From: Chloroflexota bacterium
GTDB taxonomy: Bacteria > Chloroflexota > Anaerolineae > B4-G1
NCBI GenBank assembly: GCA_024232355.1
Contig: JAAEPW010000396.1
Location: forward strand, 1 to 25,504
Direction: 5' to 3'
Length of the DNA: 25,504 nt
Of this stretch, positions 835 to 23,800 are shown one piece after another. Made by a program: the position numbers and the translations under genes. Each line of letters begins with the position of its first letter. The stretch's first letter is position 1. The notes beneath the pieces were generated by a model. It did no database searches, had not been told where the DNA came from, and was given only the letters and a program-made list of their open reading frames with translations.

Positions 835-3800
835 TTAATCCTGTACGAGTTCTTCAAGCAGCGCCTTGGCTTGCTGCAAGTCGATTGTATCGAATCCCTC
901 GGTGAGCCAACCTAACGTCTTGGCCAGGAGTTGCCGGGCTTCCTTGTGCTTGTCCTGCTCCCGCCACAAACGGCACAGGATCGTGACCGCCCGCAGTTCC
1001 CACGATTTGGCGCTCTGCCGTCGAGCGACCTCAATGGCTTGGTACAAACAGTCTTGAGCCTCAACCCAATGCGCGCGCCCTTTCACCATCAGCAGCTCTC
1101 CCTTGCGCAGGGAAAGGTCTGCTTCAAAGTGACGTTCGTCGGCCTCTTCCACCAGCGCCAGTGCCTCTGCGATCACGCTCAACCCCTCTTCAATCTGGCC
1201 TGCGCTGGCGCACGCCTTGGCAAAGTTGGCGAGCTGCTGGGTGTGGGATGCCAGTATCCCCACGGATTTGCAGGCCACCACCCCCTCCCGCAGGGTGGAC
1301 AACCCCTCTTCTGTTCGTCCCAATTCGGTCAACGCTCGACCTTTGACGCATTTGCCCCATGCCTGGTACAGCGCGAATCCATGCTCAGCCCAAAGTTCTA
1401 GTAGAGTCTCCGCTTCTTCCAGGGCCACGTCATATTTCCCGCAGCGAAGGTGGACGACGCAGCCGGCGATACCCAGAGCAAAGCCTAGGCCAAAGGGCTG
1501 GCCCAGATCTCGAGCCAGGGCGATCGCCTCGTCCGTTCGTTGCAGGGCCTGGTCAGGGTATCCCAAGAACCACAGAACCCAGCTCAGGTATGCCAGGCAA
1601 GTTACCTTTATATCTTGACCAATCAATGAAATCAGGGACTGACGCTGGCGGGGATCATAGTCAGCTAGTGCGAGTTCAAAATTGATGCGAGCCTGTGTGA
1701 ACTCGCCTAAATATACCAAGTTCATTCCTAACGCTGTGTGGGCTGCTGCTGTCTGCACCGGATCCTCTATTTGCCGAGCGAGGTCGAGAGCTTGCTTGGC
1801 CATACCCAGTGCTTTCCGGTGTTCCGCTCTCGGCATACAATAACTCCATTGCATAAGCAGTGTCTGGAATATCTGGGAGGGTTCGCCGATTTGTTGGCTC
1901 AGTTGGTGGGCCCGGTCGTAGACGCGACCACGCTCTGGGGTTCCATAGCTCTTGATGGCTCGCAGTGGTACTCCCAGGGCAAGTTGGAACGAGAGTTCGT
2001 GCTGGGCGCGCTCTGGAGAGCCCGGCAGCGTTTCGAGCAGTTCCAGCCCACGTGTATAATGTACAAGAGCTTCCTCGTTGGCAGACATTTGCACAGCCCG
2101 CTCCCCCGCTTGGAACAAATAGTCCACGGCCTTGTCGACCATTCCTGCGACCTCAAAGTGCCACGCCAATTGGCCAGCGACAGTTGCCATATCCACCGCC
2201 TCGGCTCTATTCTCCGCGTACATTGTCTCCAGGGTGTTTCCCACAGCCTCATGTAAATGGGCACGCTCTACGTCGTCCAGCCGGTTGTACAGATACTTTT
2301 GGAACAAAATGTGCCGAAAGCGATAGCGAGACAGTCTCAGCGTGCCCAACCGCCGTAGACTTGAGGCACGTACCAGGCGATGCTGCTTGCCGAATACATC
2401 GCTCAAGTGCCGTATGGTTTCAACTTCTTCAAGGCCCTGTACGCGGGCTACTACTTCTGCGGTGAACGTCTCGCCCTCCACGCTGGCTACTGCCAACGCT
2501 GCCTGCCATTCGAGTGATAACCGACCCAAGCGCTCGGCGATGACTGCCTCGACCCGTGCCGGCAGTTGTTCCCAGTTCAAGGTTGCTCCTTCGATCCACT
2601 GACCGGCCTGGTCTTGCACCAGGTCTTTACGCTCTCGCAACCCCTGCAGCAGTTCGACGGCGAACAACGGATTGCCACCGGTGTGTTGGTAGAATGTCTC
2701 GCGGAACGCAGCGTTCAGGCGATTAGGCTCGACGTCTATCAAAGCATCTACAAATCCCCGGTCATCAACCTGCGCCAGGTCTATTTGGATGTCTCCCAGA
2801 TCACGCTGCAACTCGTGGACGATCGGCTCTAGCGGGTGACGTGCCCCATCCTGTCCCAGCGCCACGTCACCCGGGCGGTACGCACCGACGATCAAAATCC
2901 GTGTTCCCGCCAGCCGCCGCCCCAGATGAAAGAGCAAGCTAATAGACCCAATGTCTGCCCACTGCAAATCGTCCAACACGAGGATCAATGGGTGCCAACG
3001 TGCCAATGCCAGCAACACTTTGGTGACTTGCTCAAACAGGTCCATCTGTTTCGGGGTGGTATCGAGTTTGTCGCTGCTTTGTTGGAGTGCTTTGCGCTTT
3101 ACAATCTCTTCCAACCGTTCTTTCCAAGCGGATCCTGCGGGGGCAAACGCTTCGGTGCGCAACACCAGTGCCGCTCCGGGCACGAGGATATCTATTAGAC
3201 CGGGACCGGCATCTACCAACGTTTGAACCGCATCGGGCAACACGCGCCATAGGCGACGGGCAGATTCATACCCAATCGCGCCGCTCGCTCGTTTGGCCTC
3301 TACGTCTCCGGTGAGCATTTGCAGTATCTCGCGAAAGGGCAAATAGGGATCGCCGATGCCGGTATGTGCATTGCAGTTTCCGTGGGCCACGACGACGTCG
3401 CCGTGCTTTTCCATCGCTCGCCGGGTAAATTTGTTGACCAGCACAGTTTTACCGGTACCCGCGTCACCGACGACAAAAGCAACTTGTCCCTGCCTCGCCA
3501 AAACCGCATCGAGAAATCCATCCAATCTGATCAACTCGCGCTCTCGCCCAACAAAAACCGATTTCTCTGCCTCGATCAAGGATGGAGCAATCAGAACTGC
3601 CCTCTTTTCCTGGCCGGACAGCATTCCATCGCGGATGCTTTCGGACAACGCAGTCGTCTCCCGCTCCGGTTCGATGCTCAACTCGTCGTTCAGCAGGCGG
3701 CGGCACGTCTCGTACTGGGTCAAAGCAGCATTGCGCTGACCATCGAGCGCTAGCATACGCATCAGGTGTCGGTGGGCCTGTTCATCCCACAACTCTAATT

Positions 3801-4377
3801 CGAGTTGCCGTCGGACGTGACCCTGGGCCTGGGCGTATTCTCCGCGTCTCTCGTAGATGCTTGCCAGGAGATGGAGCGCGTCCGCTACTTGACGGGCGAT
3901 CTGTTCTCGCTTGAACAGCGCCCATTCCTCAAAAGCAGGGCTGTCTTTCACCGAAAAGCCTTCCAGAAAAGCCCCACAATACAACTGAACTGCCAAGCTC
4001 AGATCACTTTCGTCCGCCATGTGACGGCGGCTGGCGGCGAGATGCTGCTGCAAGTCCGCCACGTCCAGGTTGTGATCGCTGGTGGCGTTGAATTGGATCG
4101 TGTCTCGGGTGACGAGCAAGAAAGGATGCGTCGCCGTGTGGTCTCTGATGACTGTGCGCAGGTTGTAGAGGGCGTAACGCAGGTTGCTACGGGCGTCTTG
4201 ATTAGACCACTCAGGCCACAGCAGCCCGGCCAGCACGTCGCGCCGGTGCGGACGGTCCGCTTCGACAGCCAGGTAAGCCAGCAGTGCCCGTACCTTGTCC
4301 GACTTGAAGGTCGTTACCGGCTCGTCGTCTAGCGTTACGTGAAAGGTTCCGAGAAAGGCAAGTGATAAGTGGGTCAT
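835..4377 (-). CDS. SARP-like transcriptional regulator: winged helix + BTAD + AAA ATPase + TPR
   Basis: Numbering from the upstream ATG at 4404: residues ~12-110 form an OmpR/SARP-type winged helix (SLAFLGTFHV opening, then SDKVRALLAYLAVEADRP and the recognition-helix region around SNLRYALYNLR). Residues ~112-255 are the helical BTAD domain. An AAA_16-type NTPase begins at FVGRERE (~284-290), with Walker A GDAGTGKT at 313-320, Walker B LILVLDDLQWAD at ~473-484 and a sensor-like strand IVGAYRPGD at ~505-513. From ~740 to the end there are TPR-like helix pairs. No C-terminal LuxR helix-turn-helix is visible. About 1,180 residues is normal for this family of NTP-dependent cytoplasmic regulators. 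I place the start at the ATG at 4377, because the ATG at 4404 lies inside a consensus -10 box and the conserved domain begins just after 4377. The gene is divergent from the giant-protein operon, its likely target. The effector is unknown. Confidence 0.9.
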   Translation of the reverse strand: MTHLSLAFLGTFHVTLDDEPVTTFKSDKVRALLAYLAVEADRPHRRDVLAGLLWPEWSNQDARSNLRYALYNLRTVIRDHTATHPFLLVTRDTIQFNATSDHNLDVADLQQHLAASRRHMADESDLSLAVQLYCGAFLEGFSVKDSPAFEEWALFKREQIARQVADALHLLASIYERRGEYAQAQGHVRRQLELELWDEQAHRHLMRMLALDGQRNAALTQYETCRRLLNDELSIEPERETTALSESIRDGMLSGQEKRAVLIAPSLIEAEKSVFVGRERELIRLDGFLDAVLARQGQVAFVVGDAGTGKTVLVNKFTRRAMEKHGDVVVAHGNCNAHTGIGDPYLPFREILQMLTGDVEAKRASGAIGYESARRLWRVLPDAVQTLVDAGPGLIDILVPGAALVLRTEAFAPAGSAWKERLEEIVKRKALQQSSDKLDTTPKQMDLFEQVTKVLLALARWHPLILVLDDLQWADIGSISLLFHLGRRLAGTRILIVGAYRPGDVALGQDGARHPLEPIVHELQRDLGDIQIDLAQVDDRGFVDALIDVEPNRLNAAFRETFYQHTGGNPLFAVELLQGLRERKDLVQDQAGQWIEGATLNWEQLPARVEAVIAERLGRLSLEWQAALAVASVEGETFTAEVVARVQGLEEVETIRHLSDVFGKQHRLVRASSLRRLGTLRLSRYRFRHILFQKYLYNRLDDVERAHLHEAVGNTLETMYAENRAEAVDMATVAGQLAWHFEVAGMVDKAVDYLFQAGERAVQMSANEEALVHYTRGLELLETLPGSPERAQHELSFQLALGVPLRAIKSYGTPERGRVYDRAHQLSQQIGEPSQIFQTLLMQWSYCMPRAEHRKALGMAKQALDLARQIEDPVQTAAAHTALGMNLVYLGEFTQARINFELALADYDPRQRQSLISLIGQDIKVTCLAYLSWVLWFLGYPDQALQRTDEAIALARDLGQPFGLGFALGIAGCVVHLRCGKYDVALEEAETLLELWAEHGFALYQAWGKCVKGRALTELGRTEEGLSTLREGVVACKSVGILASHTQQLANFAKACASAGQIEEGLSVIAEALALVEEADERHFEADLSLRKGELLMVKGRAHWVEAQDCLYQAIEVARRQSAKSWELRAVTILCRLWREQDKHKEARQLLAKTLGWLTEGFDTIDLQQAKALLEELVQD

Positions 4378-4402: not shown

Positions 4403-4430
4403 ATTATACCAAATCAATGGGGTTTATCAA
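4403..4430 (-). promoter_or_regulatory. Sigma70-type promoter of the regulator gene
   Basis: On the minus strand, TTGATA (4430-4425; 5 of 6 to the -35 consensus), a 16-bp spacer and TATAAT (4408-4403; 6 of 6) are preceded by TGG, an extended -10. Transcription would start near 4396. This puts the ATG at 4404 upstream of the transcript start and makes the ATG at 4377 the first usable one, with a leader of only about 19 nt and no clear Shine-Dalgarno sequence. Confidence 0.75.
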
Positions 4431-4438
4431 CATCCGTC

Positions 4439-4458
4439 CGCCACGTTCTCGCCACGTT
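4439..4458 (+). promoter_or_regulatory. Direct repeat with 11-bp period, candidate SARP operator
   Basis: CGCCACGTT occurs twice, at 4439-4447 and 4450-4458, identical over 9 bp with an 11-bp period. SARP regulators are known to bind direct repeats phased at about 11 bp, with the proximal repeat roughly 8 bp upstream of the -10 box. Here 7 bp separate it from the rightward -10 at 4466. The repeat also lies just upstream of the -35 of the regulator's own promoter, so one site could serve both directions. The match of spacing is observed; binding by the adjacent regulator is inferred. Confidence 0.6.
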
Positions 4459-4462
4459 TAAC

Positions 4463-4471
4463 TGGTACAAT
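4463..4471 (+). promoter_or_regulatory. Extended -10 of the small-protein/giant-protein operon promoter
   Basis: TGG followed by TACAAT (4466-4471; 5 of 6 to consensus) forms an extended -10. No good -35 hexamer is present at 16-18 bp; that place is taken by the 11-bp-phased repeat, as expected for an activator-dependent promoter. Transcription would begin near 4478 and give a leader of about 92 nt before the ATG at 4570. Confidence 0.55.
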
Positions 4472-4491: not shown

Positions 4492-4542
4492 TTACCACGA
4501 ATTTTTACTTTCACATTCGTGGTAATTCGTGCAATTCGCGGC
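4492..4542 (+). repeat. Inverted repeat plus short tandem repeat in the operon leader
   Basis: TTACCACGAAT (4492-4502) and ATTCGTGGTAA (4515-4525) are a perfect 11-bp inverted repeat with a 12-nt spacer. The right arm begins a tandem series with 9-10-base steps (ATTCGTGGTA, ATTCGTGCA, ATTCGCGGC; 4515-4542). It could fold as a leader hairpin, act as an operator, or be a copy of a dispersed intergenic repeat; similar ATTCGTG-type repeats are familiar from other bacterial genomes, but that is from memory. It is not followed by a T-run, so it is unlikely to be a terminator. Confidence 0.6.
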
Positions 4543-4569: not shown

Positions 4570-4782
4570 ATGAACGACAAGCGACGACAACATTATCTGG
4601 CGTACATGTTGCGCTTGTGGAAAACCAATACCGGCAAAGGCCCAGCTTGGCGGGCGTCCCTGGAAAGTCCCCACACCGGCGAACGCCAGGGATTTGTCGA
4701 TCTGGAAACGTTGTTTGCGTTCTTGAAGGAAAAGACCGATAATAAATCTCAGTCTGATACAATGGGAGGAGAAAAAGAATGA
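4570..4782 (+). CDS. Small conserved-looking protein (70 aa), first gene of the giant-protein operon
   Basis: I start at the ATG at 4570 because an AGGAG (4560-4564) sits 5 nt upstream; an in-frame ATG at 4519 lies inside the leader inverted repeat and has no ribosome site. The product is small, charged and soluble, with no signal peptide or membrane segment. A core of about 45 residues contains YLAYMLRLWK, WRASLESPHTGERQGF and a C-terminal LETLFAFLKE helix. I recall similar short proteins with the W-RASLE-HTGER-GF signature from Chloroflexota but know no assigned function. The stop TGA overlaps the ATG of the giant gene (ATGA at 4779-4782), so the two are very likely cotranscribed and translationally coupled. 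Possible roles are a regulator, chaperone or partner of the giant protein; none can be shown here. Confidence 0.85.
   Translation: MNDKRRQHYLAYMLRLWKTNTGKGPAWRASLESPHTGERQGFVDLETLFAFLKEKTDNKSQSDTMGGEKE
4764..4770 (+). promoter_or_regulatory. Ribosome binding site of the giant gene, inside the small gene
   Basis: GGGAGGA lies 8 nt upstream of the ATG at 4779 and inside the last codons of the 70-residue gene. Together with the ATGA stop/start overlap it fixes the start of the giant gene and suggests translational coupling. Confidence 0.8.
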
Positions 4783-5820
4783 ACCGTTCTCGTCAATATG
4801 GTTATTGGATTTTGACCTTGAGCATCACGTTGCTTCTGTTAGGGTTCGCGGCGGTTCCATCAGTTTTAGGAGCCGATCGTCCCCCCACGCCAGAAAAAGT
4901 GGTGCAGCGTGCGTGGCAGTTGGCCCAAGAGTCAGGCGCATACCACTTTACTACTGAGATTGTGCAAACGACGTACCCGGCCCCAACGATGGCTAACTTG
5001 GGCCGCAGCAGCCGGCAAGAGGCGGTGTACATCGAGGGAGATCTAGATCTACCGATGCACACTATGTGGATGAGCCTATGGCAAGATGGCGGCACCGTGC
5101 TGAATCCCCGACGGGACGGCGTCGAAATACGCATCGAAGGCGACCGTGCGTACGTCCGTCAAACTGGAGGGGCGTGGCAGGAGATAGATGACTTTACTGG
5201 TGCCTTTGCACCAAGCAGTGATCTGATGTCCTACTTGGTAGGGGCAAAGAATGTACAAGAGCTAGATACTGATACCCGTCAACTACCCTCTCCAGATGAG
5301 AGCGAAATAACAACAGTCACCTTTACCCGCTATTCCTTCGACGTGGACGGCCCTGTGTTCGCTCGTCACGTGCGCGACCGGCTGGAGACTTATTTGCGAG
5401 AGAAAGGTGAACTGCCACTTGGAATGACATTGGACACCTCTCGCACATACCTGGATATGACCGGTCAGGGAGAGGTGTGGATCGATAGTCAAGGCCTGCC
5501 TCTGCGTCTGACCGTGCATCTGGTCTATCCTGAGCAAGACAATGGCGAGCGCGTTGAGGCCGACATCAAGAATGACTTTGCGGGTTTTGCACCGCAGTCG
5601 CCACAAGTCTCCGATTCCCCTATCGCACGTGGTGTAATGATAAAGCTCGATCTATCCCGCACGCCCCGCGAGTGGCAGCAGATTGGGCAACGGGCTGTTT
5701 TGGTGGTGAGCTTTTTGGGGTTTCTGATGATGCTCCTCGCGCGCCGTGCGACGCGGAAGGTCTATGCAATCCTAATCTTGATCGTCGTCGTCTCGATGGT
5801 TGTCACACCCTTGTTGCAAA
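4779..5820 (+). other. Signal peptide, LppX/LolA-like domain and two-helix membrane anchor of the giant protein
   Basis: A basic start (MNRSRQYGYW) leads into a hydrophobic LTLSITLLLLGFAAV core and a small-residue cut site. Residues ~35-285 resemble the LppX_LprAFG/LolA fold, with alternating strands such as EAVYIEGDLDL, DRAYVRQTGGAWQEI and GQGEVWIDSQGLPLRLTV. Helices at ~306-323 and ~328-347 flank the basic ARRATRKV loop, which by the positive-inside rule lies in the cytoplasm. The N-terminal domain and everything after residue 347 would then face outward. Confidence 0.65.
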
Positions 5821-8800
5821 GCCACCATGTCTATGCTTTTTATGAACGCCAGTCAGCCCGGGCGGCGCAGTATGAACAGCGTGTACAGGAGCAAGAGACC
5901 ACCCGTGAGCTACAGGAGGAACTCTCGGCCTCCGATTGGCACCCTCACCGTGACCCTCTAGCGGTCGACCCTCAATTGCATGTAGCCAGTGATTTGTCGT
6001 CGTCGCGCGCTACACTTTTCAACTCACAATCTACACACTCGAGTCTGGTCGCTGACGATGAAGGTGACCCTGACCTCGATCAAGATGGGCTGACCAACGG
6101 GCTTGAGGAGGCCCTGGAAACCGATCCAGCAGTTGCCGACTCGGATGGCGACGACCTCGACGACGGTGTAGAAGTCCTTCGCCTGGGCACCGATCCTCTG
6201 AACCCGGATACCGACGGCGACGGTATTGCCGATAACGTGGAAGTGGCAGGCTTCACGCTCCCAGGCCAAAGCCAGCGTTGGTATCTCGATCCGAAAAGCC
6301 CAGACACCAACGAGGACGGTCAGGTGGACACGACCGAGTGCCCCGACTTGGTGGGCGAGGACGATGCGGACGCTTTCTATTGCTCCGACACGGATAATGA
6401 CAACATCCCCGATGTCTTTGACTATGACAATGACGACGACGGTGTGCCCGACAAAGTGGACATTTCCCCCAACGGCGTGGTGGACCGTTGGGGAAAGCGT
6501 GACGATATCGCCAGCCTGAGCCCCTTTGATGGTGACCATCCCTTTGCCCTCCAGGTGGACGGTTTGACCGCCGATGAGCCGGTTTTGGTGGACTTTCAGT
6601 TACGCCCTGTCACAGCCACTCACCTTTCGTATGCCCTTAACGTACTAGATTGGCCTGGTGATGATAGTGAGGGCCAGATTCAGCGAGTCAAAAACACCAC
6701 TTTTGCCACCTCGGACAACCCCCAGGTGAGAGACGAGTACGACCCGCGGGCCGCCAACGGCGACATGCGCTTGATCCCGATGTTAGAGATCGAGATGCCC
6801 GTCAAAGTAGGCGACAAGGTACCCCTGGCACTGACCAATCCGGCTGTCACCGTCCAGGTGCGCGGCGACATCTCGGCCACGGTTCAGATGGAACAACATG
6901 ACAGCGATTCCAACCAAACTGTCCTAGAGTTTACGAGAGGGGACGAACAGACTTATTATGCCGGGGTTTGGGAAGGCGCTTGTCCTGCCTCTCCACCTTC
7001 CTCCGCATCAGATTACCAATGCTACGTTGACTCGGACCAAGAGACCTGTACCATAGATGGCAGGCTCACAGATTTGGCCAACGGAGAGCACCAGTTGATC
7101 TTTTACGACGCCGTGTCGGAATGGACCTGCACGCGGATAGACAATGTGATTAACGGGCCGTATACGGACAAGATGATAGATCCTGCGCCACTACAACCTT
7201 ACGGCATCTCGGTGCGGGAAGCCGACGAGTCTGGCACGCTGTTGGCCTATGTGCCGCTGAATCTACAGGCCGACGACACTGGTGGCGGCAAGGCGGCCTT
7301 TTCTGCTCGCATGATATACTGGCCCGGCGCTGACGCCATCTGGGAGCAAGCCCAGTACGTGCGCGTGGTGTGGCTGGTGCAGATGTTGACCGATTGGTGT
7401 GACGAGACCGGATTTCAGCCTTCTAACGAGGCTGAGGATGACCCTGACCAGTACAGTGACGAGCTTGATGCCTGGTGCGCCGATTCCGCCAACCGGACGA
7501 TGGACGATATCCAGATCGTGCACATGTACGACGAGGAGTGGTATCTCACCGGCCTCTCGGTGCGCGAGGATCACGGCCTGGACGTGGCCGTGGCCTACGA
7601 AAACCCCGCCACCGACACTGACCCTTACAACGAAGACGCCCTATGGCATCTGGCATGGGGCCTGGGCAGTACGTTTGCCGCCGGCCGCGATTCCAACGGA
7701 GATAACGAACGCGACATCACCATCTTTGACACTGACCAAGCCGGGATGCACACTGGTAACTCGACCATCAAGGATCGCTTTGATCCCGATCCCTCCACCA
7801 ACGTTCCCGAGAAAAAGCGGTGGGCCATTCCCAAAAATACGCTGCGCGTGGAAAACCTCCCCCGTTATGACCACCAGGATTATATCACCTACATCGCAAT
7901 GACAGAGACGCCCCGTATTCTGGATCAATTCTCACACGATGTCGCTCCCACGCTGCTCTTTGCCCGCGAGGAGCGCTATCGCGGCGTCGACCTGGGCACG
8001 GGAGTCTGGGACGATGGCATTTTGTCCATTGATGCGACGTCAGCCAAAGCCGTGACTATCGCCGCGTTGCAGTGGGCACCTTACCGCTACAACAGCGACA
8101 TCGGTTCAGACGGTCAGGTTGTCGGCTGGGAGTCCTATCCCATTGACGAGTACTGGGATCAGATGGAGATCGATCTCACGGATCAGTTCGAGTTGCTTGA
8201 TCCTGAGGACTCGGAATACGTCAACCTGGGCCGTATGGTCGTCGCCCGGTCGTTCTACATCTCGCTCGTCCATGGGATCGTAAGCCAGGTGGAGAACGGC
8301 TTGGATGTGATGTGGACCTCTGACCCTGACCAGGAAGACTCGGATCGGTTCCTCACTACCCAGCTCAAGTCGTCGGTTAGCGGAGTCAAAGTGGCTGCCA
8401 AGCAGGTTGCCAAAGCCACATTGAGAAACCTCAAGTATGTGGTCGAGTTGGATTTTGGGATCATGGATATGGAGACAGGTGTCTTTGAAATAGCGACAGA
8501 AATGCGGGAGCGATCTCTTTTTGAATCCCTCGGTAAGGCGATGAAGGAATTTTTCATCACCCCCTGGAAAACGCTTGTAGAAAACCTGGGCAAGGCGCGG
8601 ACGGCTGTGATCGGGGGTGTGGTCGCCTTGGGTGCTGTCGCCGCGCTGGGCATCTCTATCTATGCTGCCAGCAAGGGCAGCAGCGGGATAGAGGTTGCCG
8701 TGCGGGTATTGCTTGGCCTGGGCACAGTGCTGGCAATCGCGGCGGTGGTGCGCACCGCTTCTGCCCTGCTACAAGCGGCCAAGACGGCGGGTTCCGTCGC

Positions 8801-11800
8801 TGCTGCGGTGAAAACGGCCGTCCGTGCCGCCAATGGACTCAAGGGATGTGTGACTAAAGCGGCTGTCGCCGGTCTGGTTCTCGGAGCAGTGATTACGTGG
8901 GCCGCTTTTGGACTGCAGGCAGGACTTTCGGGCGGCATGTCGCGCGTCGAGTGGGGATATGCCATCGCGGGAGCCATTGCCAGCACCATCGTGGCCGTCA
9001 TCATGTTCGTCGTCGAGCTGATTCCCCTGGTTGGACCGCTCATCGTCGCCGTGATCGCCTTGATCGATACCGCCGTGACCCTGCTTTGCAGTGCTTTTCT
9101 CTCGGATGAACAGCAGCAAGGGGATGCCGGTCAGTGGCTATGTGGCGGTCTCACCGGTACCGTTACCAACCTCATCAAGTTTATTATCTTTAGCAGCAAC
9201 GTGATGGTCGATATGCAGCCCGAGGACTATGAACGACTCGAGTTCAGCAGCTTTGACGCCAACGATTTCGTGGACCCCGCCAAGGGTTTTTCCGAGGGCA
9301 ATCTGATCCAGTACGGAATCTCACTCACCAACACCATTGATCTGATCAAAATCCCCTCCAACCTGGGAGGGGGCTACTGGTATCAGTACAGCGACGGCGC
9401 GTTGCAGAGTTCTACTTTTGAATATCGATTACAGTCCGAGGAGGTTGATTTTCACGATGAACTGTCCCGCAATACGATGAAGAACGAGTGGCGGCGTACA
9501 GATAGCGGGCGGCCCTTTTTCATCACAGAAACGATCCGCAGTGAGGATGGCCTTCCCTTGCCGGAGCCTGGTATCAACCGTCCGGCGGGACTATACGTTT
9601 CAGAAGGGTATGCCATCCCCCTCCAAGAGTGTTACGTGGGCGTCTGCACCATTCAGACAGAAAGGGGCACAGAGCATTATGACCTGGGCCAGGGCCTCAA
9701 GTTTGACATCTTTCCGGTCACGTTGGATGGGTTCTATGATCTGACGCCAAAGCAGTGGGGTTGGACTTTGGCCTGGGGCCAGGAGGGTGATGTGACCTTT
9801 CCCCAGTTGCAGGACGCCGATGGCGATGGGATGAACTATGACCAGCACGACAATTTGTGGGACGCCGACTATGACGGTCTTTCGGACTGGCACGAGACCC
9901 AGACTGGCAGCGATTCCACGAGTCCAGACAGTGATGGAGACGGACTGACCGACTACCAGGAGGCCCGGTTGGGTACCTATCCTGGTCGTGCAGATAGCGA
10001 CGGCGATGGGTTGTTGGATTGCGAGGAGGTCTTTCACCAGGTCTTGGTGGCGGATATCTTTGGTGATGGTTCTGGCCCGCGATGCGACGCAGTTGGTTCG
10101 TGGTCCGGAGGTTGGGAGTTTGTCTACGCTATGGAGAAGGACGGCGACGTGCACACCACTTGGGTCGCGTCTGACCCGCTGGCGGTGGATACCGATGGCG
10201 ACGGCTTGACCGATTTCCAAGAAAAGACCTTTGGTTTCCACCCCCGCTGGCTCTCCGGTGCCAATGTTCTGACACTGGAATCGGTAGTCATGGAAGATGC
10301 GGGTGGCGGTGCTTACACGACATCGGATGGATTCGTCGCGCCCGGCGATACCCTTCACTATGAGGCCACGGTCACCAACGAACTGTACAACCGCTATGCG
10401 CAGGGATTGCTGGAAACCGACTTTCCCCGCGAAATGGATGCCGTGGCCGTGCCGCCAGAGGACTTTATCCTGTACCCCCAGGAGCAGCAGACGATCGCCG
10501 GCGAGGTGGATGTGGATGGCGTTGCCACCTCTGGCATCTACAGCTTGACTCAGGTGGCAGGCGCGTTGATCACTGATTGGAGCGAGGTGTCTGGTCACGC
10601 GGATCTTTGGATGCCCTTTGAGGACCCTATTACGATGGACCGGTCGGGCAGTCAGCCGTCCCACGACGGCATCTGCGTGGGTACATGCCAATCTCTCCCA
10701 GGACTGTATGGCGACGCTATGCGCTTGTACGGGAACAGTTACATGACCTCAGACTTTGACCCCTCTGAGATTAACTATGCGGTGTCGCTGTGGTTCAGGA
10801 CAGGTCAGGCCGACGGGGGACTGTTCTCCGCCGGCGAGAGAGGTGTGCAAGTCTCTGTGGAAGATGGGAACGTATGCTCGCGGGTGCCGTGGAACTATGG
10901 CATCCATAGCACCGTTGTCGTTTTTGAAGACCTTTGCACCGGAGACACTAGCTATAATGACGGTGATTGGCATCACGTCGTGCAGACCTTTGGCAGCACG
11001 GTCGGCGGTCACAAACTCTACGTCGACGGTCTGCTGGTGGGCAGTGGTTCGAGGACCGCGGAGGATTTCCCAAGCCAGCATGGAGTCGACATTGGCCGCT
11101 CGCTCGATCCTGACAGTCTGTTTATCGAATATTTTCAGTTCAACGGCCGGATTGACGACGTGCGCGTTTTTAACGAGGGGCTTACCTCGTCAAAAGTACA
11201 GACCCTATTCAATCAACCGGTCTTTGACATGACATTCGATGAGAACGCTGGCTGGAAAGATCACTCGGCTTTCGGTAATGACGGCTCTTGCCAAGGCGAC
11301 GCCTGCCCCAGCCGTGTAAGCGAAAGCGTATCTGGAAAGGCCGCCAAGTTCGACGGAGGCGATCACATCTCGATTGACTCTGATCCCAGCCTGAACTTGA
11401 ATGATGGCCAGTTCACTATCGCGGCCTGGATTTACCCCAAGGCATCTCCCAAGCACTGTGTCGAGTACTGGCACGACGGGACGACGTGCCTGGCCTGGCA
11501 TCCGGAGGGTATCTTGGGACGGCGCAGCGGTGAAACGAACGGCTACCCAAGTTTGCAACGGGTGGACGTCTATGATTTGGCCCACGGCGAGGTCGAGCAC
11601 GCGATCCGGTTTGGCTTTGGTACGGGTAGCGAGTGGCTGGAATACACTAGCGGCGATGTTCTGACCGAGCATACCTGGAACCATGTGGTGGTCACATTTT
11701 ATACCGATACCCTCAAGCTCTACGTCAACGGCGAACTCCAGGGCGAGGACACCACCACGTTCCATGGCGAGGTTCCCTCCGCGGTGACAGATTTTACTAT

Positions 11801-14800
11801 TGGGCGGTCCAGCAATAGGGGCAAGATCACCTTCCAAAGCGTTCTGGTAACCGACGAGGATGATCCAGGGGACGCCGAACTGTGTATGGCCTTTGACGGC
11901 AGCGAGATATTCAACCAATCAGTCAATGCGCATCACGATGAGGATGGGGATGGCGCCCTTGATCCCTATCCCATAGACCGCATCAGGAACTTTTACGGTC
12001 AGGGTACTCTGAAAATGTGGGAGAATGACAGCAACCCGAAATGCGGCTCTGCGCCCAATGGTAATGATCAACTGATTGATACCTGGAATTTTTCCACGAC
12101 TGATCCCGGGTATGGTTCCACCAGTAAGAGTTTCTCCGGTGATGTCACGGGACGCTTGTTCTCGACATACGCCAATAACTCGATACCTTTCCACGGCAAG
12201 ATCGACGAGGTGCAGATCTACAAACGGGCGCTCACCGAGTACGACGTGGTCGATCTGTATCGGGCCGCGACCACTGTTCTACACCTGCAACTGGACGACC
12301 CGCCTGGCGAGACCAGTTTCCAGGATGCGGTGGGCGAGCACGATGCTGCCTGCGATGGCGGTGCGTGTCCCACATCTGGCGTCATTGGCCGCGTCAACGG
12401 GGCGGCCTGGTTCGAGGCGGCGGAACAGGACCACTTGAGCATCGCCAACAGCGGCATCAATCAACTGACCAAAGATTTCACGGTGGCAGCGTGGATCAAG
12501 CCGACCCAGCTATCCGACATCCAGAGAATAGTTGCCACGGCGCGAACACAGAGTACCAACGGCTTTGCGTTTGGCACCAACGGCACCAACCTGCGCTTTA
12601 CTACCTTTGACGTCCATAATTACGACATCACAGGGATAGAGCTACAGGCTGACCGGTGGACCCACGTAGCAGCCGTTATGGATGGTGAAAACAACGTCAG
12701 CTTTTATGTGGACGGCGCCTTGATGGGCCAAGTCGATCATACATCGCCTGCCGCTGCGGATATCGACGACGAGTTGCTATTTGGCGCGACGACGCTGGTA
12801 AACAGTGCATCCCTTACCCAGCAGTTCGATGGTCAGATTGACGACGTCTACGTCTTCCAGCGGGCGCTCCCGGAGCACGAGATCAAGAACATCTATCGCC
12901 GCGCACCGGTTTTCCAGATGCACTTTGACGAGAATCAAGGAGCCACCCAGTTCGTCGACGATTCCGGGAACAACAACCACGCCACCTGTACCGATCCCGC
13001 TTGCCCACAGGTCGGTATGGGCATAGAAGGCCAACTTGGCTGGGCAGCCGAGTTCGATGGCTCTTACGACAAGCTCGAGGTCCCCGATAAATGGGCCCTG
13101 GACCTGAACGAATTTAGCGTCGGGGCCTGGGTCAGACCTGCTGCCGTCAACACCACCTATCCGCAGGAACTGGTAGGAAAGTACACAAAGGGGCAGGGAA
13201 TCGCCTGGAATATCACGGACATCAACTATAGGTTGTACATTGAAAAAGACGGAATGACACCTGTCTTTCAATTCGCGAGTAATTGCAATGATACGTCAGG
13301 TTACAGAGCGACGAGCAAGGTGCCTCTGGTGATGAACCAGTGGAATCACGTGGTGGGGACGTACGATGGACATTGGCTCACCATCTATGTGAACGGCGTT
13401 CCACAGGGCAGAAACTCGTATGATCTCAATGAGGCGATACCGTGCAAGAACATTCATCCGCTGCGGGTTGGAGGCTATCGCGGGAATTCATTGCCATTCC
13501 CGTACCGGCACGATGGGTTTGCCGGCCGTCTGGACGAAGTGACCATCTACCGCCACGCGCTTTCAAAGCAAGATATCGAAGCAATCTTTCAGTACCAGGC
13601 AAAGTGGGTCGAGGACCGGCAGAGCCACGACGTCACCGTGGACGCCGACGATCCGGTCGTGGAACTGGTTGTGCCTGCCACTCATCTACCCAACCAGGAC
13701 GTACAGTTGCTTGTCACGGCCCAAGACCTGACCTCCGGCGTGACAAAGGTAGAACTGGGTGTGAGAAGATATGACGCGGGTAATTACGTCTGGACGGACG
13801 CCCCGCGCTGTAGAGGCGGTCAAACCTGGTGTCCCACCTTTGTGCCTTCTGGCGGCGACGCGAGTTACACGCTCTGGGCACGCGCCACCGACCTGGTAGG
13901 TCACATCGGTGCATCCAGCCGGGTCACCGTCTATGTGGACGACGCGCCGCCTGTCGTGGGCTTTGACTTTGCGGACGAGACACGGATGACGCCCGCTCCA
14001 CACCCCACCCGCCGGAATGCCTGGACACTCCATCTTTCCGGCTGGGTCCTTGATCAATATGACTACCTGGGCAGCGGGGTAGCCACAGATACGGTCAAGG
14101 TGCGCCTCTTTGACACCAACGGTGCGCTCGCCGGCCCGGAGGCACAGGCGGCGGTCACAGGAAATATCTGGTGGGCGGTGGACTATGCGCTTGACGAGGC
14201 GCGACCCAATGGTCCGTACACCGTCACTGTCGAGGCGGCTGACCGGATTGCCCTTTACCCCAAGATCAGTGCGGAGCAGATCGCGCGCCACACCACCATC
14301 ACCGAGACCACCATCTATGTGGATGCGACCGCCCCGGTCGCCAACCTGGATTTGAGCGATATGCCGGTGGCTATCACCAAAACGACGGTGATCAGTGGAG
14401 TGGCCACCGAGCGCCCTGTCCCGCTTCTGGTGACCTGGCTGACCGACGAGGGCGGCGAAGAGGCCAGCCTGACGATTGCGTGTGGCGGGGTGACGCTCTA
14501 CTCGGCTGAACCGGGGGCATTTCCTCCCCAGGCGACCACCCATAACTGGAAAGGACAGGTCCACCACAATGCTGCTTGCCAGGTCAGCTTGACCGATAGC
14601 GCTGGCGACGGCGGAGTGACCGGCACCGTCCGGATCTGCGGCAGCCAGGTGGCGAACTGGAGCGACAGTTACGGATACAGCTATACCATATCCTTCACCG
14701 CAGATTCTTCTGCCTGCAATCCCGACACACCAGTTGCCGGAGTGAATGGCGTGCAGATCGCCTTTACGCCGATCCTGCCCGGTTCACCCTTTTATAATCC

Positions 14801-17800
14801 GGCTGGGATTCCTGATCCCGTGCTTCACTTGCCTCTCGACGACACTCCCGCCGCCAATGGTACGCTGACCTTCCAAGACACTTCCGGCCTGGGCCACGAC
14901 GCCACCTGCAACGGCGACCGTTGCCCATTGACCGGAGAGCCTGGCAAAGTCGGGAGCGCCACCCATTTCGACGGGGTAGATGACCTGGTGCGCATTCCTG
15001 ACTCGTCCGATTTTGATTTCGGCACTGGGCCATTCGCGATCAGTATGTGGCTCAATAACGAGGGGGATTCTTGGAGTCATATCCTGAACTGGAGCAATGG
15101 TGGGGAAAACTCGTTCAAAATCTCCTTGGGCCAAGATAATCGTGTCCAAGTTTATCTGGTAATAGGTTATAGTGGGGGGACAGTTATCTCGAACGGTGGT
15201 CGATTGCAGACTGATGGATGGCATCATCTGGTCGTCGTTAGGGATAGCAGCGGCCACTTTACTACATACATTGATGGCAGTGAGACTGGTTCCGGCACCA
15301 GCAGTGCCGATATGAACGAAATCAACGCTGGCACACCTATTTGGATCTCTAAACCACCCAACAACACTCTCTACACGCCGTTCAAGGGCTTGATAGACGA
15401 GATCCGCATCTTTGGCCGCGCCCTCACGCCCAGCGAGGTCGAGGCTCTCGCGCTGGCTACCGAGTCCTCTGAACCAACGTTGATATTGCCCTTGGACGAG
15501 CCTTGGGCATTGGACGGCACGACGATGCCGGACATGTCCGGCTTTGGTAATTACGCCTTGCTGCAAACCGGCGCAGACGACGGTGACAACAAGGCCGTGT
15601 ACGGCCAGGTCGGCGCTGCCGCTCTGTACTTTGACGGCGTGGATGATCACGTCCAGGTTGCCCCAAGCGATGAGTTGGACCTGAGCGATGGGTTATTTAC
15701 ACAGGCTGCCTGGGTCCTTCCCGATCCTCAAGACACCGGCACGTATCCTATCCTGAGCAGCGGAGCCTATACCACAACGCGCTACGATTATCCCTTCCTG
15801 AACGTCGTGAATCGCACCCAGCTTTACGTCGGTTTTGGTGATGGGAACGATGTCACCGCGTTTAGCACTGGCGATATCCTGACAGAGGACGATTGGAATC
15901 ACGTGGCGACGACTTTTGATGGAAGCACCTACAAAATCTATGTTAATGGTCAGGAGCAGGTCTCAACGGACCAGTTTGCCGGCAAGTTGCCGCATCCCAC
16001 ACAGCAGTTCGACCTCGGTCGCGGCACCGACTCTGGCGGCGGGGCACTCTGTCCAGTCGTTACAGAGTTGACGCTAAAGCCCAGCGAGTACAGCGGTGGA
16101 TTCTATCGGGTGCGACTCGATGGCGACGTGATATTTACATCTGATACCTATCTATACCCTGAACGAATCTATGCCACTGGCCAGTCTCCCGAGTTCTGTG
16201 GTTCAGTGCAGGTTGAGATAGAGTGGGGCCAAGGACAATGGAACGGAATTTCATGGCATTCTATGGGCACGTACACGATAAATAGTGATTCCTTTTCCGG
16301 CAGTTACCAATTCTCGTACAAATTGCCATCAAGCGCAGTCATCTCGGCAGACGTCGTTTGGCAAGTGGCTCCTGCAGCCTCCAGCCTGTTGCACTTTGAG
16401 GGATGGCTCGACGATGTGCGCGTCTATCCGCGTCCGCTCTTGCCGTTAGAGATCTATGCATTGTATAAAAATACCTGGCGGGGAACGACACTGACGAGCG
16501 GATCGGGCACAGACCTTGCCACCTGGGCTACTCAAGTACCCTCTGGGCTAGAAGGCGCTTACCGGGTTGACGTGCGCGGTTGGGATGTAGCAAACAACAT
16601 CGGTGATGTCAACCTGGAAACCTGGCGAGGCGAGGTGGACACCCTAGCTCCACGGGTGTCTATGACCCGAACGGCGACCGCCGAGGGCTATTATTTCACC
16701 ACGGTGGCAGAAGATTTCAATCTGGCAGAGGAGGGCTTTGTGTCTCCGTGCGGCGCGGGTACGATCACAGACCGCCGGTACTATGGAGATTCCTGGTACC
16801 TGACCTTTTCCGGGGGCGATCAAAAGCTCTACCAATTGACCGCCGAATGCGAACTGCCCGTCACTGCGATGCAGGGCGAGATCGGTGACTATGACACACC
16901 AGGACTTGCCAACGACGTCGTCATCTCTGGCTCTTATGCCTACATCCCCGACGGTTTGGGTGGTTTGCAGATCGTGGATATTTCCGACCCTGGTTTCCCG
17001 ACACTCGCCGGCTCGCGCCCCATATCGGGCGTCGCCTATGCAGTCGCCATCGCTGACTATCCTTTGACGAGCACAAGCGCTCTCGTTTCCAGAAATGCTG
17101 TCCCTGACGTGCTCTCCCTGGCAGGTTCAGGCAAGGTCTTGCGCGCGCAGACCTACGGCGCTGTAGCTGATAGAGGCGGCGTCTTGGAGATGATCGAGAT
17201 CAATGAACCATCCCATCCGCACAATGCTAAATTACACGGCAACTCAAGGACCACCCAAGCTGATCGTGTGCCTGCTCCCCTGGCACCGACGGCTGTCTTT
17301 ACCGTGACGGCAACCAGTCCACTGAGCAACGGGCTGGTGATCGCCCGTGACGGGATCATCTCGGCCACCTTTAGCGCACCCATGAGCAACACCACGGTCA
17401 ACACGCACACCTTTACCGTGCGCGGGCAGCAGACGGGTATCTACGAGGGAATCTACTCCTTTGGCCCCGTGCAGTTCGATGCCACGGACGATTTCAAGCC
17501 GGGCGAGGAGATCGTGGTCAACTTGAGCAGCGGTATCCGGGCCACCGACGGCAGCACGCTGGATCCCTACGCCTGGCAGTTCCGGGCAGCGACCGTGAAC
17601 GGCACGGGTGTTTTCAGCGATAGCGGCCAGCGCTTGGGCAGTCTCCTGACCTTTGCCGTGGCGCTGGGTGATCTGGATGGGGATAGCGATCTCGACGTCT
17701 TTGCTACCAGCAGGGAGACCAACACAGTCTGGTTAAACAGTGACGGTATATTCACTGCCAGCTCCCAGACACTAGGGGTTTCAAGCACACAGGCTGTAGC

Positions 17801-20800
17801 GTTGGGAGACCTAGATAACGATGGCGATCTCGATGCCTTTGTCGGCAATGGTGACGTCTATGGCGCTCAGCCCAACACGGTCTGGTTGAACGAAGGCGGC
17901 GTGTTCACTAACAGCGGCCAGACGATAGGTGTCTCAAAAACGCTGGCCGTGGCCCTGGGAGACCTGGATGGCGACGGTGATCTCGATGCTTTCCTTGGGA
18001 ATGACGCCGACATCGACTTTGATTGCCCCGGTACGTGTTACAATGGCGGCATAAATCAGGTCTGGCTGAACGATGGCAGTGTGTTCACTGACAGCGGCCA
18101 GACTCTGGACGGTGGTTCGGCCACCCAAGCGGTGGTACTGGGAGACGTGGATGGCGACGGCGATCTCGACGCCCTGGTCGGAAACTATGCCTCCGAGTTC
18201 TCAGGCGACTGGCTAGGCGGAGAGAACCGGATATGGCTAAACGATGGCACCGGCGTCTTTACCGATAGCAGCCAAACCCTGGGCATCACCAAGACCCATG
18301 CAGTGGCGCTGGGAGACCTGGACGGCGACGGTGATCTGGACGCTTTTATCGGGAATTATGCCCTGCCTGACACGATCTGGTTGAACGACAGCGGCGTTTT
18401 TACCGATACTGGACAACGTCTGGGCAATGGATTCACTGATGACGTAGCGTTGGGAGATGTGGACAGCGATGGTGACCTGGATGCTTTTGTCACCAACGAT
18501 ACTGTCGTTCAGGTTTGGCTGAACGACGGGAGCAGCGTTTACGTTGATAGTGGTCAGAGCTTGTCCGTTTCGCGGTCACAGGCCGTGGCTCTAGGAGACC
18601 TCGATGGTGATGGTGACCTGGATGCCTTTGTCGGAGATACGGGAGAACCAGGACCTGACACGGTGTGGCTGAACAACGCGAACCCGCCCGTGGCCAACGA
18701 CGACAGTTTTGCCGTGGCCAAAGATTCCAGCGGCAACGTCCTCGACGTACTGGCCAACGACGACGATCCTGACGGTGACGGTTTGACGGTGATCGCCGTG
18801 GGCGATCCGGTCAGCGGCACCGCCACGACGGACGGCAGCATGGTGGTCTTTACACCTACGCAGGACTTTAGCGGCACTGTCGTTTTTGCCTACACCATCA
18901 GCGATCCCGGTGCGCTGACTGACACTGCCGCCATCACCGTCTCGGTGGGCGGTAGTAACGATCCGCCTGTGGCCCAAAACGACGTCGCCACAACAGACGA
19001 GGACATGCCAGTGACGATCGACGTACTGGACAACGATAGCGACCCTGATGGGCAGACCCTGTTCCTGAGCGCCGTGGGCATGCCGGCAAACGGCAGCACT
19101 GGCATCGCCGGCGACGCGGTGGACTATACGCCTGATGCGGACTGGAGCGGCACAGACATCTTTACCTACACCACCAGCGATGGCGAGTTGACCGATACGG
19201 CGACCGTCACCGTCACCGTCTACTTGCTCAATGACCCGCCGACACTGAACGCAATCGCCGACCGGACGGTTGACGAAGACGCGATCACGCAGACGGTCCC
19301 CCTGAGCGGTATCAGCACAGGGGCAGCCAACGAGACCCAATCTCTGACGGTGACCGTCAGGACAGTGGTCAATCCCGACGTGGTTCCTGATCCTATTGTC
19401 ACCTACACCAGTCCTGATTCAAGCGGTATCCTCAGTTTTGCCCCCTTGCCTGATCAGTTCGGCACAGCCCATGTAGAGGTGACTGTCAGTGATGGGTTGT
19501 CTCAGACCATCCGTTCCTTTGAGATCACAGTCAATTCGATCAACGATCCCCCAACGATGCTGCCAATCTCTGACCAAACAACCGACGAGGACACCCTGAC
19601 GAATGTTTCGGTGAGTGGCATCAGTTATGGGCCTACCAACGAAAACGCACAGCGACCAGACCTGGCGATGACAGCCTCGTCTACCAACACGGCACTGCTT
19701 CCTCATCCTACGGTCGTCTACAGCAACGGTGTAGGCACGTACACCAGTGGCGAACTCGTTCTCGATCCGGTTGCTGATCAGTTTGGCCTGGCTACGGTGA
19801 TCGTGACCATCACCGACGGCCTTTCCGAGACCGTCCGCACCTTCCAGGTCACCATCGCCCCGGTCAACGATCCACCAACCTTGGACGCGATTCCCGATCT
19901 GCAAACTTACGAGAACGCGGGTGTGCAAGTGGTCAACCTGACGGGCATCGGCACGGGAGCGACCAACGAAACTCAGTCTCTGACTGTAACGGCTTCCTCA
20001 TCCTACCCCGGCCTGATCCCCCATCCCACTGTGACCTATGTCAGTCCTGACTCTAGCGGCAGTCTCAGCTTTGCGCCGGTTGCCGAGCAATACGGCGAGG
20101 CGATGGTGACTGTGGCCGTGACCGATGGCCTTTCCGAGACCCTTCGCACTTTCCTGATCAATGTCGACCCGCGCCACGCCGGTACCTACGCCTACGTGGC
20201 CGCTGGCAGTGCTGGCCTGCAGCAAGTAGATGTATCTAATCCCGGCGATCCTCAGTACGTGAGCGGGTACACGTGGGCGTGGTGGCATCCCTACGAATGG
20301 CACCAGGCTCTCGACGTCGTCGTCTCTGGGCAATACGCCTACATGGCCACTGGTAAGGCAGGCGTGGTTGTGCTAGACATCTCCAATCCAGACGACCTGC
20401 AATACGCGGGCAGTCTGGATACAGATGGATATGCCACTGCTATCGCTATCTCTGGGACCTATGCTTACATAGCCGATGGACTCGACGGCCTGCAGGTGAT
20501 GGATGTGTCTGACCCGAGCAATCCGCAGCCTAGCGGTAGCCTGGGTCTGCCGGGCTATGCCAAGGACGTGGTCGTTTCGGGGACCTACGCCTACGTGCCT
20601 GACTATGAGGGCTTGCAAGTGATAGATGTGTCTAACCCTGGCAACCCGCAACTCGAGGGGACTTTTGAGACACCGTCGCGCTTTGCCGTGGCTGTTTCTG
20701 GACACGATGCCTACCTGGTCGGCTACGTTGGCTTGCAGGTAGTGGACGTGAGCGATCCCAGCGACCCACAGCTTACGGGTGAGTTCCGCACCGGGCGTAA

Positions 20801-23800
20801 CGGCGGCGTCGCCGTCTCTCAAGATCTGGCCTATATCGCCAGTTACGAAAATGGGCTGTTGGTGGTGAATCCAGACGGCATCCTGCCCCAGTCCACGGCG
20901 TGCGATAGTGCCGGTAACTGTGCTACAGAGAAAATAACTTTCGCACAAGCCCAAACCTCCGCGAAGCAGTTGAGCGATCGTGCTCTAGCTTTGGCCGGGA
21001 AAACGGCGGCTGAGGGGGTGAATGTCTCCATCCTGAATGTGCCTCCCGTGCTCGACAGTATCGCTCCTATCTCGATCACCGGCCGGGCCTATGCCATCAC
21101 GTCCTCTTTGCGCGCTCTGACCGTCACAGTGGACAGTGTTTCCATCTACACGGACTCGTGGGCCAGCGATACCATCACCGAGGCAACTTGGTGGGTTGAT
21201 TGGACACCAGCGAGCGAGGGACAGCACGTGATCCAGGCGGTGGTCGCGGCCTGGGACGCTAGCATCGCCAGCGACGTCATCACCATCACCGTAGATGCAC
21301 AGCCTCCACAGATCCGTATCACCTCTGCCATACTCACGGGCACCCACTACTACGAACCGAGAACCCTCGACCTGACTGGCCTGGTCAGCGATACGAACGG
21401 CGTGGCGAGCGTGCGGGCCAGTGTCGTGGGGACAGATAGTGACTGGTTCGATGCCACCCTCATCGGCAATCGCTGGATAGCGCCCTGGCGCTTGGGTTTG
21501 GACACTCTGCCCGACGGGACGACCTTTATCATCACGGCACAGGCCTTTGATATCGTCGGCCACACGATTCAGGTCACCAAGACGGTCGTCGTAGACGTGG
21601 CGCCACCTGCGCCGATGACACTCACCTTGAGCAGCGGAGGAAGTCCTCTCGCCCCCGCTGACATCTTGCGAGAGGTCTCACCCTCGCTGACTCTCGATTG
21701 GACTGCAAGCAGCGACGGAAGCGGCCTGTCCGATTATCTCGTGCGGTGGACGACTCAGACCACGTCAACCCTCCAGGTCACCGAGCAACTGACCGATCAA
21801 CTATCCAGTCAATTGACCGCCTATGATGGCCAAAAGCTGTCGGTGCAGGTTGCCGCGCAGGATGTCTATGCGCAGCAGCGGTGGCAGGAATTTGGGCACA
21901 TTTACGTGGACAGCCCTCGCACACCCGACTATGTCGTTTTGGAGGATGCGGATGGCATCTACCGTGGGTGGATGGAGAGCGGGTGCACGCTGGTGGGCGT
22001 GGACCGTCGCGTCGAACTGCGCGCGATGCCTGGCGCAGCGCTGAACGCGGAACAAAATCTCTATGCCACCTGGAACGCCGAGGCGATACGTCTGGCTTGG
22101 AGCGGCGCAAACTGGAATACCGACGGTGATCTGTTCATCTACCTAGATACCGAGAGTGGCGGTACGATCACAGTGTTCAATCCATACCTATCCACCATCA
22201 CCAACACAGCAATCTCTCTACCCGACGAAATGACAGCGGATACCCTGGTTTGGGTGCAGGATTCCAAGAACGCTGTCCTGCTGCACTGGGATGGAGGCGA
22301 ATGGGCCTTTGAGACGCTGCTCTCGACCGAGCAGTACCGGTTTGACCCTGCCTTGAATGATGGCCAAACCGACTTGTACTTGGCCTTCGACCTGATCGGC
22401 CTATCCTCAGGCCAGGGATTGGGTCTGGTGGCGCTAGCCAGCGAAGAAGGGGCTTTGCGCCTGTGGGCGACGATGCCCGACGTCAATCCCGTCAATAGCG
22501 AACGGGCAGCCAAGACGACGGCCTTGGTCGGCGTGACCCAGGTATTTACCCTTAGCCACAGCTATCGTTGGGATGGGGTGAATGCAGGCGTGTGTCCCAA
22601 TGGCAGCGACAGTGGAACGTCCACGCCGTTCTCGGATACCGACGTGCAAGTGTACATCTCGACCAATCCGGCGGGGGCCTCCTACAACCTGTTAGGCGAT
22701 GACCTGTTCTGGCTGCAAGACCTGCTGCTCAACAACGCACCGGCTGACGTTACCTCGTTCTTTAGCTTTTTGGGTGCTATTCAGCCAACCGTGGGAGATG
22801 GTCACACGATCACTTATACCGTCACCTACCGCAACCAGGGAACCATCACAGCCACCGGCGTCTATGCCGACGTCACGGCTCAGTACGCTATGCGCTTGCC
22901 GGATGGCGATTTGCCTGATCGGGATCATCAGATCGTGCTGCTGGGTGACATCAGTCCAGGAGAAGATGCCACCAAGACCTTCCGGGGTGTGATTGACGTT
23001 TCGACAGGATACCAGAATTGCGTGGGAACTTTGCTACTTGAAGACTGCACACCCTACCTGCAATGGGCAACGCTAGATGCACGGATCTATGATGACGCGC
23101 ATCCTGATGCTGGAGCGCCGCTAGAGTGGATCTGGGTGGACCACCGAGTGGACTATACCCCGCCCAATTTCTTTGGCATCCAGCAGCCTACATATCTGAT
23201 CGGGCCGGGTGCCATTGACCTGTACGGTTATGCGTACGACGATGTCGGCGTACCCGAGATTGGGGTAGAGGTTCAAGCGCCAGCCGGAGGCACCAGCACG
23301 CTCACTTGTGCAGACAGTCAGCCAGAGGATGGCGCGTGGTCGTGTGCGTGGGACGCGACCGCTAGCAATGGCGGCGTCCCGCTCGCCAATGGCGACGTCT
23401 TTACACTCTCGCTCCAGGCTATCGACGGCTTTGGGCAGGCGAGTGTGTGGAGCAAGGACCAGCCTTTCTTGGTAGACACTGTGCCCCCCACCGTCACCGT
23501 AGAGATCACGACGACTCGGATCTTTTCCGGTGCACTGGTCCGCGATACCGCCTTTACGTTGGTCGGCGACGTAGCTGACGATGGTGGTGTAGCTGGCGTG
23601 AATGTCTGTGTGGAAGATGCGTGTCGAACGGCCAATCTGCAGTTAGCGGGCGAACAATCTTCCGTGACGTACAACGACATCTTGAGCACTCCTATTGCCA
23701 TCAACAGCACGACTACCTGCGGAGGTGGTGAGATCGTGCGCACTTTTTCAGTGACAGAAAGCTTTGCGATTGCCCAGGTGAGCGTGGGTTTCTCCGCTGA

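Follow-up and report, generated by a model that had tools for sequence, protein, structure and literature searches.

A Predicted SARP Box Between an AfsR-Like Regulator Gene and a Giant-Protein Operon in Chloroflexota

The subject is a pair of direct repeats between two divergent promoters in a 25,504-nt stretch of contig JAAEPW010000396.1 (GCA_024232355.1, Chloroflexota bacterium). This whole stretch is called the window, and all coordinates refer to it, in forward-strand numbering. The repeats are very probably the activating site through which the adjacent regulator, an AfsR-like member of the Streptomyces antibiotic regulatory protein (SARP) family, acts on an operon for a small protein and a giant protein. 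The best reading is that this SARP would privately activate the divergent operon, whose promoter has no -35 element. SARPs are known chiefly for activating antibiotic clusters in Streptomyces. Judged from the sequences, the system is a probable SARP switch outside that setting, with regulator and operator changing together across dozens of related loci. The direct basis is the sequence, the period, the spacing, the predicted fold and the residue-base covariation; binding, activation, sigma contact and the ATPase switch we infer by homology to AfsR.

The Repeat and the Two Promoters

The predicted SARP box occupies positions 4439–4458 of the + strand. Direct reading and the repeat search agree on two perfect copies of the 9-mer CGCCACGTT, at 4439–4447 and 4450–4458, with CT between them and 11 bp from start to start. 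Seen from the - strand, the box reads AACGTGGCG AG AACGTGGCG. The -10 of the small-protein/giant-protein operon, 7 bp downstream of the repeat, is the extended element TGG TACAAT (4463–4471, + strand; TGG at 4463–4465, TACAAT at 4466–4471), found by direct reading and by the promoter scan, which detected no promoter with a -35 at this -10 on the + strand of the window. The regulator promoter is TTGATA-16-TATAAT with TG before the -10 (4430–4403, - strand); it has 11 of 12 consensus matches in the promoter scan, and its -35 is 8 bp from the repeat. A preliminary description of the region had pointed out the repeat, both distances and a strong promoter of the regulator, and all of these are borne out.

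By itself, the repeat in the window is mildly unusual and is modest evidence. With up to three mismatches allowed, the window contains the box pattern once, where 0.03 occurrences are expected, but the pattern was derived from the site itself. In 3000 dinucleotide shuffles of the 192-bp region, a self-match score of 9 or more was reached at offset 11 in 11 shuffles, and at any offset from 6 to 40 in 441. The latter figure would suit a chance duplication without function, but the same period, spacing and covariation recur in held-out loci, which already contradict this explanation, and we regard it as hardly credible. What makes the repeat convincing is the conservation of the layout across loci, not the repeat alone.

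Conservation of the 11-bp Period

The locus search with alignment A1 gave 74 loci in genome contigs; a single-sequence regulator scan of the same contigs yielded no confirmed match. The discovery set consists of 44 distinct intergenic regions, each flanked by a regulator and a divergently oriented small gene; two of these regions (L099) share regulator and box. The test of the period was free of any motif: every region was compared with itself at offsets 6–40, ties were shared, and regions dominated by another tandem repeat (e.g., L125 at offset 7 and L120 at offset 17) were kept in the counts. Offset 11 was the best in 27.3 of the 44 regions, against 1.3 expected (1 in 35). The mean best score at this offset was 8.77, compared with 3.6–5.2 at other offsets and with a shuffle mean of 4.15 (sd 0.18) at offset 11.

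The held-out set comprises 80 further loci (L221 and L223 are near-identical), and 60 of the 80 small genes have a divergent regulator. Here offset 11 was the best in 32.6 of the 60 regions, with the same expectation of 1 in 35, while it was the best in only 2.3 of the 19 usable held-out regions without a divergent regulator in view. An offset-11 score of at least 7 is seen in 35/44 discovery and 44/60 held-out regions, against 22/147 control intergenic regions. The phased repeat that the preliminary description proposed to look for beside related operons is thus present in both sets.

A strict pattern, AACGTGGCGNNAACGTGGCG with at most one mismatch, is found at 10 places in 7 of 199 genomes (the reversed control pattern gives three matches in three genomes). 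Matches are this few because the repeat unit differs between loci. In five of the seven genomes they lie directly upstream of a relative of the regulator; the other two are G081 and G174. The arrays are also seen apart from the small gene. Among 18 inspected regulators without a divergent small gene, nine carry the NLRY helix of the window regulator, and six of these nine have a clear CGTGG array (L001, L004, L006, L018, L024 and L052); that of L009 is weak. In L001, L006, L018 and L052 the phased CGTGG arrays precede open reading frames (ORFs) with an export-like N-terminus.

One locus (L041), which combines a phased GCGTGGA box and a regulator with a weak match to the small protein (E 6.5e-5), is in a metagenome-assembled genome labelled Acidimicrobiia (Actinomycetota); this may reflect either a module that crosses phyla or an impure bin. 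Apparent fusions of the small protein in long open frames (L109, L139 and L113) were rejected, the extra part being an upstream frame not shown to be coding.

Spacing to the -10 and Apparent Activator Dependence

The spacing was measured from the first phased CGT, read toward the regulator, which was available in 25 of the 35 discovery and 32 of the 44 held-out regions scoring at least 7. On the strand of the small gene, a -10-like hexamer lies exactly 9 bp from this CGT in 16/25 discovery and 19/32 held-out regions. The chance value for any one gap is 0.13 and 0.15, respectively (candidate densities of 0.0052 and 0.0046 per bp), and other -10 candidates within 40 bp of the anchor number four and three. 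Since the gap-9 hexamer helped to place the operators for the covariation and promoter-element counts, those counts are no independent evidence for the spacing; the CGT-anchored count just given is independent. None of the 57 target promoters with a gap-9 hexamer has a -35 with at least four of six matches, against 12.7% in shuffles. Based on these features, the promoter of the small-gene operon looks activator-dependent.

The regulator promoters behave differently: 27 of 40 have a -35 of at least four of six matches, and the distance from the repeat to the regulator -10 is scattered over 4–52 bp. The fixed gap to the small-gene -10, the scattered distance to the regulator and the missing target -35 together link the site to the small-gene operon. 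The preliminary description had also suggested that the site adjusts the regulator's own expression; this part was not supported by the scattered distances and the retained -35 elements. A main role of the box at the regulator's own promoter is quite improbable on the same grounds, even with the box of the window only 8 bp upstream of the regulator -35. In L110, L111 and L112 the end of the offset-11 segment is 4 bp away from the extended -10 of the regulator (TACAAT), which likewise favors autoregulation, and the box of these loci could also contact the regulator promoter.

Covariation of Regulators and Operators

Operators could be called in 69 of the 104 divergent regions. Two regulators (L110 and L114, of 35 and 75 aa, with the helix not readable) were excluded from the later counts. 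After short and near-identical regulators were dropped, 64 rows remained, and the count for residue 67 was made on 63 regulators of at least 240 residues.

Over the 64 rows, the similarity of repeat units follows that of the winged helix (r 0.338; none of 2000 permutations as high). By part, the correlation is 0.369 for residues 58–75, the strongest within the winged helix, 0.172 for BTAD and -0.012 for the ATPase part. Residue 67 stands out of 343 columns with a partial r of 0.527, the next being 0.190. R67 occurs with CGT, CAT, CGC or CGA, S67 with TCT, TAT or CCT, T67 with TGC, and N67 with TGA. R67 goes with a C(G/A) core in both copies in 55 of 55 cases and another residue with another core in 8 of 8 (seven distinct regulators), without exception. 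The phi of this rule is 1.00 (the next best of 218 columns reaches 0.39), and the rule holds in the discovery (23 and 4) and held-out (32 and 4) parts alike. All five independent pairs on the tree agree (sign test p 0.0625).

Residue 68 shows a tendency, not yet a strict code: Y68 accompanies GG after CGT in 5/5 (one GG occurs with another residue), N68 accompanies A in 3/3, and V68 accompanies T in 3/3. The links from residues to core positions are R67 to 0 and +1, Y68 to +4 and less to +3, N72 to +5, and S26 to +6. Their z values are 17–18 for R67 and 9–10 for Y68 and S26. The codons of R67, Y68 and N72 are at 4177–4179, 4174–4176 and 4162–4164 of the - strand, within those of the recognition helix (residues 59–76 in the AlphaFold2 model; 4150–4203, - strand).

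OmpR-type proteins can bind phased direct repeats. A different OmpR/PhoB-type regulator, not the product of the adjacent gene, might bind the 11-bp repeats, and the available part of PMC10972967 describes the afsS site as common to PhoP and AfsR in Streptomyces. A remote regulator would not account for a unit that tracks residue 67 of the adjacent regulator and is linked to its residue 68, so that such a binder is very improbable. The adjacent SARP-like protein, the SARP-type geometry and the giant-protein operon as target, all proposed in the preliminary description, are supported by the conserved period, the exact -10 spacing and the covariation of the recognition helix.

Comparison with AfsR and Other SARPs

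According to the available text of PMC10936776, AfsR protomers of Streptomyces coelicolor bind side by side on their box and engage sigma region 4, replacing the -35 element; the NOD and TPR parts inhibit the protein, and ATP binding relieves the inhibition. The same text places S46 among the residues on the backbone at -40 to -37, has R92 and T88 read -38 and -36, and puts R87 on the backbone within -35 to -33. The profile of the window regulator aligns with AfsR over 5–332, and weakly over 978–1153. A residue r of the window regulator corresponds to AfsR r+20 (S26=S46, W54=W74, R67=R87, Y68=T88 and N72=R92). A single mapping, p = -33 minus the AfsR position for the upstream repeat and -22 minus it for the downstream repeat, fits all the links within 1 bp. 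Placed on the promoter-proximal unit, it puts the -10 hexamer of the window at -12 to -7, where a -10 belongs; the available AfsR text gives no coordinates for the -10 of afsS itself. The covariation appears to match the AfsR-DNA contacts in polarity and register, as a comparison of two contact maps.

This polarity fits only the small-gene operon as the target and points away from the regulator promoter, which argues further against autoregulation. It bears also on repression, in which the regulator would bind the box and cover the operon promoter. In its favor, repressors can also occupy the -35 region, which the box overlaps. A target promoter without a -35 should be weak unaided, a repressor would not need an exact 9-bp spacing, and polarity and register equal those of an activator, so that repression is quite unlikely. 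The CGTT unit of AfsR and the CGT core of the window were considered as one word in one place, and this was rejected because the window word is oriented away from the promoter of the target; judged by the contact map, the two resemble each other by an accident of strand.

Like AfsR and the afs box, the window system has an OmpR-type winged helix with BTAD, nucleotide-binding and TPR parts, two 11-bp direct repeats, and a box overlapping the -35 region (PMC10936776). Unlike AfsR, whose target is afsS, the window regulator faces a divergent exported-protein operon and reads other bases; it belongs to Chloroflexota by its named relatives, and its ATPase matches Pfam AAA_16. The site rule for SARPs in the available part of PMC4393881 is repeats 11 bp apart, with the 3' repeat 8 bp upstream of the -10 and the 5' repeat over the -35. 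In the window the period is 11 bp and the 9-mer is 7 bp from the -10, and in relatives the core is at 9 bp. The small SARP OtcR likewise has 9-nt direct repeats with an 11-bp period a 3' repeat 8 bp upstream of the -10 and a 5' repeat over the -35 (PMC4393881). Yet OtcR activates the oxytetracycline cluster in which it is situated (PMC4393881), whereas the window regulator has 1180 aa and adjoins a giant-protein operon. PimR, a SARP-LAL, resembles the window system in its multi-copy heptameric repeats between divergent genes and its SARP-ATPase fusion, but it acts on another regulator gene and has its repeats upstream of the -35, as described in the available parts of PMC5930380 and PMC3367932. 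EmbR of Mycobacterium tuberculosis (PDB 2fez) has an FHA domain (PMC10936776, available text), where the window regulator has ATPase and TPR parts instead. The literature search, in which subscription journals were thinly covered, gave no paper on SARP operators in Chloroflexota among the papers listed, and none on the specificity of SARP recognition helices.

Several observations weigh against activation of the operon by the adjacent SARP. Offset 11 is slightly overrepresented in control intergenic regions too (best in 10.7/147 against 4.2 expected), 25 of the 104 divergent regions have no offset-11 segment of score 7 or more, and the operators are callable only in the 69 regions. Two NLRY-helix regulators without a divergent small gene, L005 and L007, have no CGTGG array in 350 bp upstream. 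The extended TG is present at just 23 of the 57 target -10s. The sign test on the tree has five independent pairs, for which p 0.0625 is the floor. Q68, the commonest residue 68, occurs with C, G and T at +3, giving no strict code, and links outside the winged helix (E158, F301 and D122) reach z of about 6. Of the DNA-contact residues conserved in Streptomyces SARPs (Q48, W74, P79, T88, R94 and K95 in AfsR numbering; PMC10936776, available text), the window regulator, with K28, W54, N59, Y68, R74 and T75, has two of six identical (W and R).

Regulator and Target Genes

The regulator gene is at 835–4377 (- strand) and encodes 1180 aa. Its start was taken as the ATG at 4377; the longest ORF begins at 4404 and overlaps its own -10. 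The N-terminus is an OmpR-type winged helix followed by BTAD, as in the SARP family, and the Pfam matches are AAA_16 at 275–497 and TPR_12 at 852–905. This is the order of large AfsR-like SARPs, in which the SARP domain is followed by nucleotide-binding and TPR domains. OmpR/PhoB response regulators do not fit, as the AlphaFold2 model places the winged helix at the N-terminus, and no receiver family is among the Pfam matches. An earlier AlphaFold2 model, built on 10 sequences, had low quality (predicted local distance difference test 64) and was discarded.

The small conserved protein (4570–4782, + strand; 70 aa) has 125 matches in the protein search including itself, no Pfam family, and no matches in viral contigs. 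Matches to it occur in 83/199 genomes, with up to 10 per genome. Based on gene order, this family without a Pfam entry is tied to a predicted SARP regulatory module as the gene before an exported gene. The giant gene (4779–24,653, + strand; 6624 aa) starts within the end of the small gene, and its product is taken as exported from its hydrophobic N-terminal segment. The domain search found LamG-like, TSP3, FG-GAP, Big_5, LVIVD, cadherin-like/Big_9 and P-domain. In 52 of 67 loci with room to see, the ORF after the small gene opens with a hydrophobic stretch.

The giant gene contains direct repeats at 17,658–18,644, in the FG-GAP region, and at 19,443–20,178, with units of 53–112 nt and 62–79% identity to the reference copy. 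Its protein ends in KLYLPLTAHNW...VYLPVVMKE (24,573–24,650), a type of tail that exported proteins of Chloroflexi often carry. An 11-bp inverted repeat, TTACCACGAAT/ATTCGTGGTAA, with more TTCG-type repeats after it, is present in the operon's 5' leader (4492–4525). The stability of this RNA is not unusual (fold z -1.17), and no exact match to a related pattern was seen in 249 fetched loci.

Proposed Mechanism and Significance

The window regulator has the same order of parts as AfsR, and it would therefore act in the same mode. The repeat would be a 22-bp SARP box for two adjacent regulator molecules, each occupying one 11-bp unit and placing helix 59–76 in the major groove. The box would replace the -35 element, sigma region 4 would dock on the bound dimer, and the promoter would be completed by the -10, which is extended in the window. 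Transcription of the operon would then occur once the regulator is available and has been activated via its ATPase/TPR part.

It can be speculated, with considerable doubt, that many genomes of this Chloroflexota class carry several mutually insulated copies of the switch, each with an AfsR-like SARP, a private box of 11-bp phase, a conserved 70-aa protein and an exported protein. Here, box specificity would follow a residue-base code of the recognition helix (67 with 0/+1, 68 with +3/+4, and 72 with +5), and the small protein, encoded first in the activated operon, would be a feedback or signal partner of the TPR/ATPase part of the regulator.

In uncultured Chloroflexota, many paralogous copies of SARP machinery seem to govern exported proteins, including a giant one. 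The co-changed DNA words and recognition helices would be a natural data set for the recognition code of SARP and OmpR-type proteins. They may provide a rule for predicting the targets of thousands of unstudied BTAD regulators (at least 5411 relatives were scored), as well as candidate orthogonal activator-promoter pairs.
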